The notes under the pieces: model-generated | Seen by the model: only the letters and a program-made list of their open reading frames with translations | The model's database searches: none | Told to the model about the DNA's origin: nothing | In this document: positions 44,863 to 52,799 of the stretch, piece after piece | Position numbering within the stretch: the stretch's first letter is position 1 | Layout of the letters: the number at the start of each line of letters is the position of its first letter | Assembly: GCA_014879945.1 (NCBI GenBank) | Contig: JACSRE010000293.1 | Location: forward strand, 1 to 53,472 | Length of the DNA stretch: 53,472 nt | Direction: 5' to 3' | DNA from: Myxococcus sp. | Lineage (GTDB): Bacteria; Myxococcota; Myxococcia; Myxococcales; Myxococcaceae | Position numbers and translations under genes: made by a program

Positions 44863-46281
44863 CTACTGGCCGCGCGCCTTCACCACCATCAGCTGGCCCT
44901 GCCGCGCGTCGTCGATGGCCTCGCCGAGCACCCGGGCGGCCTCCTGCGGCGCGTGAAAGCCCATGCTGTTCTCGGCGGCGATGAAGTCGAGCCGCCACTG
45001 CGCCTTGCGCTGCTGCGCCAGGGCGGGCGCGAGGGCGGCCTCCGAGACGCCTGCGTCCTTCGCGCGCGAGAGGTCCTCGATGAGGTCGACGATGGCCACG
45101 CCGCCGCGCTGCATCAGCTCCGCGTTGCGCGACTGGATGACGTCGACGCGCGCCTTCATCTCGTCCTCCGAGGCGCGGTGGCACGTCTGGCACGCGCGGT
45201 TCACGTTGAGGAGCGGGCTGCGCACCCAGTGGTCCGACACCTTGGTCGCGCCTTCGCGGCCGTAGGGCATGTGGCAGTCGGCGCACGAGACGCCCGAGCG
45301 CGCGTGAATGCCCTGGCTCCACAGCTCGAACTCGGGGTGCTGGGCCTTGAGCACCGGGGCGCCGGTCTCGGCGTGCGAGTAGTCCTTGAACGGCGTGCCG
45401 TCGGGGAAGGTGGTGCCGTTCCAGTACGCCTCGATGTCGTCGGCCCGCAGCCCTTTGCCCCAGGGGAACGTCAGCGGCATCTTCGACGAGCAGTAGTACT
45501 CGACGTGGCACTGCCCGCAGACGTAGCTGCGCAGCTCGTTGCGGCTGGCGTCCTTGTTCGGGTCGTACGGCGCCTTCTTCGAGCCCTGCCGCCACAGCGT
45601 GATGGAGTCGAGCGCGGGCACCGGCGCGTCCGAGGCCGCGAGGGCCTGAATGCCCTTGATGAAGCCGGGCCGGGTGACGCGGAGCTTCATGGTCTTCGGG
45701 TCATGGCAGTCCACGCAGCTGACCGGGTGGGCGTGGCCATCGTCGTGCAGCAGCTTGTTGGCCTCCTGGTAGCTGAGCGAGGCCGTCTTCTCGAAGCCGG
45801 CCATGGCGTCGCCGTCGCCGAGCTTGCGGTACAGCGGCATCACCGAGGCGTGACAGTGGAGGCAGGAGCCGGCCTGCGGCTTCTTCAGGCGCTCGGTCGC
45901 CTCCTGGTCGGCCAGCATGTACGCGTGGCCGCGGCGGTCGCGGTAGTCGATGGAGAACGCGTACCCGAGGAACATGCGCTTGAGCCACGGGTCACGCTCG
46001 ATCTTCTCGTCGGGCAGCGCCTCGCTCCCGCCGTGCCCGCCGAAGCGCGTCGCCGTCTTGAGCGCGGTGCGCTGGTAGCCGTCGTACTGCGAGGGCCAGT
46101 TGAGGCCCCACTTCGCCGGGTCGGTGTCGTCTTCGCCGACGTCCACCACGCGCACGAAGGCGGTCTTCTGCTCCACCTTGCGCTCGAAGATGTTGGTCAA
46201 GAGCGCGGTGACCCCGGCGGTGCCAGCGGCGACGGCGAGGAGGATGAGGGCGAGGGCGGTGCGGGACAGGGGCTTGGTCAT
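44863..46281 (-). CDS. nrfA: Ammonia-forming pentahaem cytochrome c nitrite reductase
   Basis: This 472-residue protein has an N-terminal signal/anchor ([20 protein letters not shown]). It reduces nitrite to ammonium with six electrons in the periplasm. Five haem sites are present: CLHCH (140-144), CVDCH (189-193), CGQCH (255-259), CADCH (333-337) and CQTCH (364-368). The active-site haem, usually CxxCK, is CxxCH here, the variant known from several bacteria. The Ca-site/Tyr region [11 protein letters not shown] and the active-site His in AQHPEFELW are kept. The ATG shares ATGA with nrfH, so both are made together. It lets the cell respire or detoxify nitrite. Confidence 0.93.
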
Positions 46282-46790
46282 GGCGTCTTCTTCGGGGCGG
46301 TGTGGTTGACGCGCAGCGGGCCGCCGAGGGCCGCCCGTTCTCCGTGCGCGACGTCGGCGTGGCAGTGCACGCAGGGGAGCCCGTCGTCGGGGCCGAGGTG
46401 CGAGACGAGGGCTTCGTGGCAGCGCACGCAGTTGGCCTGGAGCACCTCACGGCCCGCAGGGGCGATCTGAATCGGCTCGACGAAGGTCTGGGTGGTGAAG
46501 AGCTTGCCGTGCCGCCAGCCGTTCTCGGCCTTGGTGAGGTACTTCGGCACGAAGGCCTGCGGCAGGTGGCAGTCCACGCACACCGCCACGTCGTGGTGCG
46601 GGCCCTTGAGCCAGCCGTCGTACTGCGGCTGCATGATGTGGCAGTTGACGCAGGCCTCGGGCGCCGTGCGCAGGTACGAGGCCCCCGCCGCGTAGCGGAA
46701 GGTGAAGCCGCCCACGCCCAACAAGACGCCGCCGCTCACCGCGAGCGCGATGAGGGCCTTCGAGAGCCAGGAGCTGGTGGACGTCGCCAT
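46278..46790 (-). CDS. nrfH: NrfH-type tetrahaem membrane cytochrome c
   Basis: This 170-residue protein has one N-terminal membrane helix ([18 protein letters not shown]) and then four CxxCH motifs: CVNCH (with Met three residues on, CVNCHIM, the unusual first-haem ligand region), CVDCH, CVRCH and CVHCH. NrfH takes electrons from the quinol pool and hands them to NrfA. The order nrfH-nrfA with an ATGA overlap is the standard nitrite-reductase arrangement. No regulatory element could be fixed upstream. The 100-base gap upstream of its start contains the terminator of the preceding lipoprotein gene. Confidence 0.93.
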
Positions 46791-49639: not shown

Positions 49640-50076
49640 GAGAAGGCCTCATGAACCAGGTCGAGCTGCGCGCGCCGGGCCTCATCGCCGGCGCGGTGAA
49701 GGTGGGCCTCGTAGATGAGCGGCACGCCGTCGCGCGCGCGCTCCCTGGCCCAGGCCAGCCCGAACGCGTCGGCGCGCAAGGGGCGGTGCGAGTCGTGCCG
49801 GCCATCGTTCATCGAGACGTGCACCTCGGCGACGTGCGGGGAGCGCAGCAGGCGGTGGGCCTTGAACGAGAACCCATGGTGGGTGCGAACGGGCACGGCC
49901 CCGGCCTTCACGTGTTCGGCGAAGCCGACCGTCGGCTCATTGCCCGGCGTCAACTGCACCCCGACGCCCAACGCGGCGAGCTCGTCGAAGGCGCTGCGCA
50001 TGGGCCGACCCTGCAGACACCACAGGGCGAAGAAGAGCACCCGGCGTTCATAGCTGGCCGCCCGTGGTGGCGTCAC
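49636..50076 (-). CDS. Small TIM-barrel-like protein coupled to the repeat-companion gene
   Basis: This 146-residue protein starts at a GTG at 50076; an ATG at 50001 (MRSAFDELAALG) would shorten it to 121. Short beta/alpha alternations (RRVLFFALWCLQGRPMRSAF, LAALGVGVQLTPGN, VAEVHVSMNDG, GVPLIYEAHLH) recall a sugar-isomerase/endonuclease-IV barrel fragment, but the protein is too short for a whole barrel. I do not assign a function. It shares ATGA with the repeat-companion gene, so it is real and co-expressed with it; only 27 bases separate it from the next, divergent gene. Confidence 0.6.
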   Translation of the reverse strand: MTPPRAASYERRVLFFALWCLQGRPMRSAFDELAALGVGVQLTPGNEPTVGFAEHVKAGAVPVRTHHGFSFKAHRLLRSPHVAEVHVSMNDGRHDSHRPLRADAFGLAWARERARDGVPLIYEAHLHRAGDEARRAQLDLVHEAFS

Positions 50077-50103
50077 GACGACGGCGTGCTATCGAGCGCG
50101 GCC

Positions 50104-51630
50104 ATGATGCGCCGAGCCCTCGTCCTCCTCGCCGTGCTGCCGCTCCTCGCGTGCCCAGACAAGAAAGAGGCGCCTGACACCCACGCGGCGGCGCCCGTGG
50201 ACCCCGCGACGCTGAAGCAGGAGCGCGTCACCGTGCTCATCACCGGCGCCGAGAACGGCTACCTGCTGCCCGTCACCGACGAGGGGCAGTCGCGCGGCGG
50301 CGCGGCCGAGATTCTGGGCCGGTGGGTCGCCAACGAGGGCCACTGCGCCGGCCCGCTCGCGGCCAGCGGCGACGCGGCGTGCGAGAAGGACTCCACGGTG
50401 GTGGTGTCGACCGGCGACAACGCGAACGGCCAGGCCATCTCGAGCTACTTCAAGGGAGAGCCCGCGGCCGAGCTGATGCGGCACATGGGCTACGCGGCCT
50501 CGGCGCTCGGCAACCGCGAGCTCGACTGGAGCCGCGAGCAGTTCGTCGCCAACCGCGCGAAGGCCGGCTTCCCCTACCTCGCCGCGAACCTGGTGGCCGA
50601 GACCGACGAGGGCAAGGCGCTGGGCCTGGGCAGCTTCCGCGTGCTGACGCGCAGCGGGGTGCGGGTCGCCATCATCGGGCTGGCCGCGCGCAAGGCGACG
50701 GTGACGCCGATGCCCGGCCGCATGCAGGGCCTCAAGGCCATCGACGAGGCCGAGGCGCTCGCCCTGGTGATGCCCGAGGTGAAGAACGCCAACCCGCACG
50801 TCATCGGCATCGTGAGCGACGGCTGCCTCAACGACGCGCCCGCGATGTTGGCCGGCCACGCCGACTGGAACATCACCTTCTTCGCCGGCCGCCGCTGTGA
50901 CGCGCCCTTCCCCGACTCGGCCGAAGGCACCCGGCTCGTCTACCCGGGGAGCCGGCTGTCGCAGTACGCGAAGGTGGCGCTGACGGTGACGCTGTCCACG
51001 ACGCCGGTGCAGGTGACGACGGCCGTCTCGATGGTCGAGGTGAACTCCGAGGGCGCGCCGCCGGCCGACGCGAAGGCGAAGGCGCTGGTGGACGGGTGGA
51101 AGCAGAAGCTCGACGAGGCGCTCGGCGGCACCATCGGCTTCTCGAAGGCCGGCGTCGAGCAGGAGTCGGCGGCGATGTCGCACTGGCTCACCACCTCGCT
51201 CAGGGAGCAGTTCAAGACCGACGTCGCGCTGCTCAACCGCAAGGGCGTGCGCCAGGCGCTCCCCGCCGGCCCGGTGACGAAGGCGTCGATCTACGACCTG
51301 GTGCCCTTCGACAACCAGGTGGTCATCGCGAAGGTGAGCGGTGAGGCGCTGCTGGCGGCGCTCGGCAACACCGAGGCGCGCGTGGCCGGCATGAAGCCCA
51401 AAGGCGAGGGCTGGGTCGACGCGAAGGGCACGGCGCTGGACCCGAAGAAGACGTACACCGTGGCGACCACCGACTACCTCTACCTGGGCGGTGACGGCTT
51501 CGCGCTGAACAAGGCCGACCCTGCGCCCACCGAGACGAAGGTGTCGTGGCAGGCCGCGCTCATCGAGTGGACCGCGGCGAAGAAGTCAGACGAGAAGAAG
51601 CCGCTCGAGGGCTTCCTGAAGGTGAAGTGA
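50104..51630 (+). CDS. 5'-nucleotidase/UshA-family lipoprotein lacking the metal-site motifs
   Basis: This protein has 508 residues from the ATG at 50104 (a second ATG at 50107 is equally possible). The leader ends in a lipobox (LPLLAC). Both parts of UshA-type proteins are seen: a calcineurin-like phosphoesterase part (about 35-270) and a 5'-nucleotidase C-terminal domain (TSLREQFKTDVALLNRKGVRQ, SIYDLVPFDNQVVIAKVSGE). The metal motifs of the first part are altered: LITGAENGYLL stands where NDxHG is expected, GNRELD where GNHE, and TFFAGRRC where GHTH. It probably no longer hydrolyses nucleotides and may bind a ligand. It is the first gene of a two-gene unit with the next. Confidence 0.85.
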   Translation: MMRRALVLLAVLPLLACPDKKEAPDTHAAAPVDPATLKQERVTVLITGAENGYLLPVTDEGQSRGGAAEILGRWVANEGHCAGPLAASGDAACEKDSTVVVSTGDNANGQAISSYFKGEPAAELMRHMGYAASALGNRELDWSREQFVANRAKAGFPYLAANLVAETDEGKALGLGSFRVLTRSGVRVAIIGLAARKATVTPMPGRMQGLKAIDEAEALALVMPEVKNANPHVIGIVSDGCLNDAPAMLAGHADWNITFFAGRRCDAPFPDSAEGTRLVYPGSRLSQYAKVALTVTLSTTPVQVTTAVSMVEVNSEGAPPADAKAKALVDGWKQKLDEALGGTIGFSKAGVEQESAAMSHWLTTSLREQFKTDVALLNRKGVRQALPAGPVTKASIYDLVPFDNQVVIAKVSGEALLAALGNTEARVAGMKPKGEGWVDAKGTALDPKKTYTVATTDYLYLGGDGFALNKADPAPTETKVSWQAALIEWTAAKKSDEKKPLEGFLKVK

Positions 51631-52799
51631 TGACGCGCGCGCTCCCGTTCCTCTGTCTCTCGGTCGTGGCCTGCAGTCCACCCGCTGCGCCTGACGCGCT
51701 GCCCTTCGAGCCGGCGGGCCCCACCGCGGCGCCAGCGCCCTCGAAGTTCGGCCCCTTCGCCGTCGGCGTGCGCACCGTCACGCATGAAGACCGGCGCCGC
51801 CCCAAGCCCGACGGCTCGCCGCGGCTGCTGGTGACGGAGATCTGGTACCCCGCGACGCAGGCCACCCGCGGCCAGCCCACCGTCAGCTACGACATTCGCG
51901 ACCGCTTCACCGAGGAGCAGCTCAAGACGTTCCCCGCCTCGGTGCCGCTGCTCGAGACGGCCGCGGTGCGCGACGCGCCGCCCGCGAAGTCACACGGGCC
52001 GTTCCCGCTCATCGTCTTCAGCCACGGCCAGGGCGCGATTCGCTGGCAGTCCACCTTCTATACGGTGCTGCTGGCCTCGCACGGGTACGTGGTCGTCTCG
52101 GCCGACCACGAGGGCGGCACGCTCGACTACGCCGTGCGCAACCAACTGCAGGACGTGGGCATCGGCATCGGCACCCGCCCGGTCGACGCGCAGTACCTCA
52201 TCACCGCGTACCAGCGCCTGCCCGAGGGCGACCCCCTCTTCGGGATGATCGACCCCGAGCGCGTGGGGGTCACCGGCCACAGCTTCGGCGCGCTGACGTC
52301 GCTGCGCGTGGCGGCCATCGACAAGCGGGTGAAGGTCATCGTGCCGCAGGCGCCTCCGTCGACCGACCTGTTCTTCATCGATCTCGGCAAGCCCGACCTG
52401 GGCATTCCGGTGATGGTGCAGGCGGCGCACGGCGACCGCACGCTGGAGTGGGACTCGAACGTGGCGCCCACCTGGGCGGCGATGAAGAAGCCGCGCTGGC
52501 TGCTCGACATCACCACCGGCGGCCACTTCACCTTCTCGGACATCTGCGCGTTCGACCTGGCCTCGGTGTCCGACGGCATCAAGCTCGACATTCCCGGCGC
52601 GAGCGTGAAGAGCGTGCTCAACGACGGGTGCGGGCCCACCTCGCCCAGCGCGGCGGTGGCGCAGCCGCTGATGAACCACTTCGCGGTCGGGCTCTTCAAC
52701 GCCACGCTGCGCAACAGCCCGGGCTCGTACGAGCTGCTCAGCCAGGCGAAGGCCGAGGAGCTGGCCGCCGGCGTGGCCGTGGTGACGGCCGACCCGTGA
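51630..52799 (+). CDS. PAF-acetylhydrolase-like alpha/beta-hydrolase lipoprotein
   Basis: This 389-residue protein starts at the ATG at 51630, overlapping the previous stop by one base (TGATG), so the two are coupled. The leader ends in a lipobox (LSVVAC). The alpha/beta-hydrolase fold shows the oxyanion strand PLIVFSHGQGA and the nucleophile elbow VTGHSFGALTS, with His in TGGHFTFS as a possible triad member. The overall look (RTVTHEDRRRPKP, EIWYPA near the start) is that of the plasma PAF-acetylhydrolase/dienelactone-hydrolase-like predicted group. It hydrolyses an ester, probably of a lipid, outside the inner membrane; the substrate is unknown. Confidence 0.88.
   Translation: MTRALPFLCLSVVACSPPAAPDALPFEPAGPTAAPAPSKFGPFAVGVRTVTHEDRRRPKPDGSPRLLVTEIWYPATQATRGQPTVSYDIRDRFTEEQLKTFPASVPLLETAAVRDAPPAKSHGPFPLIVFSHGQGAIRWQSTFYTVLLASHGYVVVSADHEGGTLDYAVRNQLQDVGIGIGTRPVDAQYLITAYQRLPEGDPLFGMIDPERVGVTGHSFGALTSLRVAAIDKRVKVIVPQAPPSTDLFFIDLGKPDLGIPVMVQAAHGDRTLEWDSNVAPTWAAMKKPRWLLDITTGGHFTFSDICAFDLASVSDGIKLDIPGASVKSVLNDGCGPTSPSAAVAQPLMNHFAVGLFNATLRNSPGSYELLSQAKAEELAAGVAVVTADP

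Follow-up and report, generated by a model that had tools for sequence, protein, structure and literature searches.

What does a protein of the 5'-nucleotidase family do once the residues that hold its catalytic metals have been replaced? The question is raised by an open reading frame in a contig (C273) of a Myxococcus sp. genome of 7.7 Mb in 448 contigs. The window, meaning the whole stretch of DNA analysed, is this entire contig of 53,472 nucleotides. On its forward strand a complete frame is open from the ATG at 50104 through the TGA at 51630 and encodes 508 amino acids. Three close relatives (84-87% identity) belong to genomes assembled from metagenomes, which carry the labels Myxococcales, Myxococcaceae, and Archangiaceae. 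An earlier interpretation made from the letters alone (the sequence-only reading) had described the product as a UshA-family lipoprotein with all three of its metal motifs altered, and had proposed that it is a nucleotide- or nucleoside-binding protein derived from an enzyme. A search of the open-licence literature found no published description of this family or of a dead UshA lineage.

Domain composition and metal ligands

The assignment to the UshA family held. The 5_nucleotid_C domain (PF02872) scores 79 bits against a cut-off of 23.6, and the same domain was detected in all 23 orthologs scanned. The PDB nucleotidase 3ivd is matched at 3.3e-21 by the single sequence and at 9.3e-41 with a 23-row profile; for E. 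coli UshA the corresponding values are about 5e-13 and about 1e-32. In the Pfam scan, the Metallophos domain (PF00149) had no match in the window protein and one match among the 23 orthologs scanned (E 0.035). This absence is a weak test, because two of the four metal-intact relatives scanned also miss the cut-off, the two above it being L090 and L093. The N-terminal half is nevertheless taken as a diverged metallophosphatase domain, because solved nucleotidases align across both domains. Two narrower NCBIfam models lie well out of reach: the UshA equivalog NF007109 scores 102 bits (cut-off 600), and the UshA-like (seleno)protein model NF041198 scores 25.3 bits (cut-off 275). The latter family is likewise derived from UshA with altered active-site chemistry, and the window protein matches it weakly. 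An AlphaFold model built from the window protein and its three relatives was unreliable (mean pLDDT 46.9) and was not used.

The signal peptide, lipobox, and cysteine mark the product as a lipoprotein by sequence, with lipidation itself predicted. In M. xanthus, the available part of an outer-membrane lipoprotein table (PMC3222651) includes MXAN2470, a "5'-nucleotidase family protein", and MXAN5361, a "putative 5'-nucleotidase", with one peptide each. Envelope lipoproteins of the 5'-nucleotidase superfamily are thus real in myxobacteria, although neither MXAN protein could be linked to the ortholog. The same source, as far as it was available, links a lysine at +2 to the inner membrane and an alanine at +7 to the matrix. 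In the window protein these positions are occupied by proline and alanine, respectively, and no sorting assignment is made because the +7 alanine is not kept in L037.

The metal and catalytic residues of UshA are D41, H43, D84, N116, H117, H217, H252, and Q254, and their identity at those numbers was confirmed on the E. coli gene. In the alignment with E. coli UshA, D41 is replaced by A49, H43 by N51, H117 by R138, H217 by D239, H252 by R264, and Q254 by D266, and C265 stands at position 253. The retained residues are D84 (D105, of the GD motif) and N116 (N137, the Asn of GNH). Six of the eight metal or catalytic residues are therefore lost, and the changes touch four of the five metallophosphatase motifs (Table 1). 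The three altered motifs named in the sequence-only reading (GAENG, GNRE, and AGRRC) are all present, but the register of the last was off: GHxH corresponds to R264-C265-D266, and AGRRC (residues 261-265) lies one residue upstream. Calling these "all three" metal motifs also missed a fourth altered motif (H217 to D239) and passed over the GD motif, which is intact at D105. In a first register C265 fell on the second histidine of GHxH, as a cysteine replacing a metal ligand; this was ruled out by rows that read GGHCH (L027/L088, L089) and by E. coli UshA itself, which place C265 at the middle residue.

Table 1. Features of the lipoprotein gene and its downstream neighbour (positions in the window)
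Feature	Position	Strand	Basis
Putative pseudo-5'-nucleotidase (UshA-like) lipoprotein, 508 aa	50104..51630	+	ORF, Pfam, profile and PDB matches
Predicted signal peptide and lipobox LLAC, lipid Cys C17, +2 Pro	50104..50154	+	Sequence; Cys at this column in 73/81 orthologs
Former metal motif I, T47-G-A-E-N-G-Y-L54 (D41 to A49, H43 to N51)	50242..50265	+	Alignment
Insert with C81 and C93, probable disulfide	50344..50382	+	Invariant in 81/81 orthologs
Motif II, retained, G104-D105...G109 (D84 = D105)	50413..50430	+	Alignment
Motif III, G136-N137-R138-E139 (N116 retained, catalytic H117 to R138)	50509..50520	+	Alignment
Motif IV, D239-G-C241 (H217 to D239; C241 invariant)	50818..50826	+	Alignment
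Motif V, G262-R-R264-C265-D266 (H252 to R264, 253 to C265, 254 to D266)	50887..50901	+	Alignment
5_nucleotid_C domain (PF02872)	51154..51504	+	Pfam, E 5.5e-22
R383 (= UshA R410)	51250..51252	+	81/81 orthologs
F402 and N404 (= UshA F429, N431)	51307..51315	+	F in 79, Y in 2; N in 81/81
Y458 to D464 (= UshA F498, D504)	51475..51495	+	81/81 each
Lipoprotein with alpha/beta-hydrolase (PAF-AH/PETase-like) domain, start overlapping the stop by one base (TGATG)	51630..52799	+	Pfam, sequence

Like UshA (E. coli b0480; PDB 1ush family), the window protein has two domains, the GD motif, the Asn of GNH, and the residues of the C-terminal pocket. In contrast to UshA, it has no equivalents of D41, H43, H117, H217, H252, or residue 254, it lacks the R375/R379 loop (also missing in the intact relatives in the alignment), and it is a lipoprotein with two extra cysteine pairs. 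The best solved relative by sequence is the "Nucleotidase" of PDB 3ivd/3ive, which aligns over both domains and has GNHE where the window protein has GNRE. Judged from these alignments, the binuclear hydrolase has very probably gone.

Orthologs, relatives, and the course of the losses

A profile (A1) of 23 orthologs was searched against 195 genomes of the phylum at a threshold of 1e-30, and matches were found in 98. Of the 96 genomes searched within the window's family, 83 have an ortholog, and a more distant match occurs in 15 genomes outside it. Two genomes of the same order as the window (G058 and G080) match through canonical-type proteins (L104 and L105) that are placed with the outgroup. 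Full or nearly full orthologs number 81, with only fragments from G009 and G010; the comparison also took in 14 outside relatives, contributed by 13 of the 15 matching genomes outside the family, and two groups of paralogs, 7 near and 6 degenerate.

Near paralogs are present in genera g13, g16, and g18, and at L076 (6253-9157) one of them, without the C81/C93 insert, is followed directly by the ortholog in tandem. The window's genus also carries a second UshA-derived protein (L002, at G000:C267:1206-2309), whose relatives are L168-L172. The window's own genome encodes five other PF02872 proteins. A canonical UshA-like relative (L003), with PF00149 above the cut-off, is found in this same genome, and the lost enzyme activity may therefore be covered elsewhere.

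The sequence-only reading had suggested checking whether the altered motifs are conserved, and at most positions the loss is shared. The histidines of motifs I and IV (H43 and H217) are gone in all 81 orthologs, with Asp at the latter in every case; D41 is gone in 78 and kept in 3, H252 is gone in 79 and kept in 2, and His stands at 254 in 3. Motif III departs from this pattern, since H117 is kept in 66 of 81 and replaced by Arg in the remaining 15, which are the window's clade. D84 and N116 are kept in 81 of 81. The 14 outside relatives (L089-L102) are UshA-like proteins with an intact metal site from other families of Myxococcota, and by profile and tree they are the nearest relatives outside the window's family. 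All 14 keep D41, H43, D84, N116, H117, and H217, so that D-x-H, GD, NH, and the motif IV histidine are intact; GHxH is nearly so (H252 in 12, H254 in 13). These relatives lack the C81/C93 pair, and two of them, L089 and L090, share C241/C265.

Invariant columns number 51 across the 81 orthologs and include D105, N137, D239, the four cysteines C81, C93, C241, and C265, and the pocket residues R383, N404, Y458, and D464. Conservation of the lost ligand columns (49, 51, 264, and 266) is below that of 99% of random sets. For the whole mature protein, dN/dS is 0.17-0.39 over the 15 pairs among six genus members, values that are rough because of a simple count method and a GC-rich genome; the N domain is no looser than the C domain among these six. 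By this measure the protein encoded at 50104-51630 is under purifying selection.

A tree was built with ten motif columns omitted; its 76 rows comprise 13 paralogs, 14 relatives, 7 canonical proteins including that of E. coli, and 42 of the 81 orthologs. The putative pseudoenzymes form a single clade with support of 100/100, separate from the intact relatives, with which L089 and L090 group on long branches (93/82). The fewest changes on the tree are one for H43, one for H217, two for D41, four for H252, and five for H254; for H117 a single change among the orthologs falls on the window's branch. Counts above one mean that several losses were repeated, and the two changes at D41 amount to one loss and one regain, or to three losses if no regain is allowed. 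Intermediates survive in L027 (D-E-N-G, GNH, Asp, and GHCH), L028 (GHCK), and L030 (GACK). The picture that these alignments give is of an active site that eroded gradually, rather than by a single mutation or a sequencing error. As read from sequence, the series is graded: intact; D-E-N-G with GHCH; fully altered; and pocket lost too.

Gene neighbourhood

The lipoprotein encoded downstream matches PF03403 at 2.6e-12 and a PETase-like Pfam family at 2.2e-10. Coupling by TGATG to this PAF-acetylhydrolase-like gene had been claimed from the sequence; the overlap at 51630 is real, but the partner is confined to the window's genus. The family was called after the ortholog in five of six genus loci (the window, L069, L070, L071, and L073), and at the sixth (L072/L011) a lipoprotein start can likewise be read from the bases past the stop. 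The stop codon and the next start codon overlap in five of six genus members, as ATGA in L012 and as TGATG in the other four. A conserved system with the PAF-AH-like gene was rejected, the family being called in none of the 15 ortholog loci outside the genus.

In the sister clade (L079-L085, seven genera), a gene of about 1,020-1,100 amino acids lies just upstream of the ortholog in seven of seven loci. Its product is a membrane protein that, in the two cases scanned with Pfam, has HEAT repeats and, at the C-terminal end, a cyclic-nucleotide-binding domain; it resembles ATP/ADP translocases weakly (20.8 bits against a cut-off of 21 for L079; 21.5 bits to TIGR00769, far below cut-off, for L083). 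The best relative of this cyclic-nucleotide/TLC-like neighbour in the window's genome is on a different contig (G000:C391), and the gene also occurs in three searched genomes without the putative pseudo-nucleotidase at 1e-30 (G015, G024, and G036); for both reasons the link is only a hint. In two early-branching genera (L086 and L088), the ortholog follows a gene that resembles the sigma-54 factor RpoN, a name given by eye from its start.

Directly 5' of the start codon (about 50074-50103), five of six genus members share the short motif GTGCTATCGA, and the sixth has GTGCTAACGA. A simple sigma-70 scan found nothing. On the opposite strand from the lipoprotein gene, the protein encoded at 47969-49639 matches the TIGR02996 domain at 42.4 bits, above the cut-off of 29. 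An NrfHA-type pair lies farther away on the minus strand (44863-46790); its NrfH passes the cut-off with 159.8 bits, and its NrfA-like cytochrome c552 falls short, with 263 of the 595 bits required. The usual first haem motif of NrfA is CxxCK; in this cytochrome it is CLHCH.

Nucleoside pocket, cysteine pairs, and possible functions

According to the available part of one account of UshA (PMC10454023), the nucleotide is bound in the C-terminal domain, where two aromatic residues sandwich its base, and is then brought to the metals by a domain rotation of 96 degrees. The window protein keeps the first of these stations (F402, Y458, N404, D464, and R383) and has lost the second. The equivalences are R410 with R383, F429 with F402, N431 with N404, F498 with Y458 (aromatic in both), and D504 with D464. 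Mean conservation of the five pocket columns is 99.5%, against 74.4% for the C-terminal domain, and five random columns match the pocket in 1 of 10,000 draws, a test that does not separate ligand binding from folding. On these grounds, binding of a nucleotide or nucleoside is judged slightly better than an even prospect.

The cysteines also follow a strict pattern. Counted past the aligned N-terminus, they number exactly four in 80 of the 81 orthologs and five in the remaining one. With double-gap rows set aside (15 for the first pair, 2 for the second), C81 and C93 occur together in 83 rows and are both absent in 24, C241 and C265 occur together in 98 and are both absent in 22, and no member of either pair occurs alone. 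This co-occurrence fits two disulfides, with the reservation that related sequences are not independent. The idea that a disulfide replaced the metals was dropped, since L089 and L090 have the C241/C265 pair with every ligand intact.

The reading preferred here, which stands at about even probability, is that of a pseudo-5'-nucleotidase lipoprotein in which the binuclear metal centre has been dismantled and a nucleotide or nucleoside is bound without hydrolysis. Such a protein would retain the UshA-type two-domain fold, the nucleoside pocket, and half of the second metal site. It would be lipidated and held in the cell envelope, facing the periplasm or the outside, and its cysteine pairs would be disulfide-bonded, with one of the two bonds next to the former metal site. 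Two-metal hydrolysis would be impossible; the C-terminal pocket would capture the ligand, the hinge motion known for UshA would close the protein upon it, and the ligand would be held or reported rather than cleaved. The enzyme-derived binder of the sequence-only reading is in this respect partly borne out: all 81 full orthologs have lost the metal centre to a greater or lesser extent and the pocket is retained, but the partial ligands D105, N137, and D239 are strictly conserved.

Pocket residues can also be kept for folding. A structural or protein-binding lipoprotein, with the old fold as a scaffold and the pocket residues needed for folding alone, is a possible though doubtful alternative. 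Degenerate paralogs without the metal site and most of the pocket (L002 and L168-L172) do persist in six genomes. All six have lost every metal residue together with the pocket residues N431, D504, and F429, and keep C241 and C265. In the same proteins the fold evidently survives loss of the pocket, yet the orthologs keep all five pocket residues in at least 79 of 81; the strict pocket conservation is therefore probably meaningful. Vps29 and the B subunits of DNA polymerases have a calcineurin-like fold that has lost its metal ligands and is non-catalytic. Unlike the window protein, they lack a 5_nucleotid_C domain and are protein scaffolds.

The invariance of D105, N137, and D239 counts against a pseudoenzyme, because these three residues could hold one metal in all 81 orthologs, as does the GNH histidine kept in 66. 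An active hydrolase would then work with a reduced one-metal centre at this M2 half-site, with R264 and R138 taking over charge neutralisation or phosphate binding. Three random N-domain columns equal the invariance of the half-site in about 1 of 1,000 draws, and among the paralogs the three residues go with the pocket: seven of seven near paralogs, which keep it, have them, and six of six degenerate paralogs, which lost it, do not. The M1 ligands are gone, however, H217 has become Asp, H252 is lost in 79 of 81, and H117 is lost in the window's own clade (15 of 81). No UshA-type family is known to work with one metal, and the one-metal hydrolase is considered unlikely.

A redox role for the conserved cysteines is highly improbable. 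C241 and C265 are always found together or both missing, and there is a family of UshA-like selenoproteins that carries a CxU motif, according to the part of its description available (PMC2398784); against this, the two cysteines are 24 residues apart with no CxxC motif, their presence in the metal-intact L089 and L090 fits a structural disulfide, and the NF041198 score is far below its cut-off. That the gene is decaying on its way out is the least credible explanation, for although its active-site residues were lost stepwise, it is present in 83 of 96 family genomes with dN/dS well below 1 and 51 invariant columns.

If the pseudo-5'-nucleotidase reading is extended to the whole lineage, a periplasmic nucleotide hydrolase of predatory myxobacteria may have become a clamshell-type envelope receptor that takes nucleotides without hydrolysing them. 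A disulfide and a conserved Asp-Asn-Asp half-site would lie where the metals had been, and the receptor might have a part in nucleotide sensing or uptake. This wider proposal is tentative and less probable than binding itself. Scoring by PF02872 makes proteins of this kind easily mistaken for 5'-nucleotidases, and with a lineage-wide set that includes intact relatives and intermediates, enzyme status should not be assumed. The graded series allows the step at which activity was lost, and the persistence of binding, to be tested. If binding is true, the protein would represent a new type of envelope nucleotide-binding lipoprotein.
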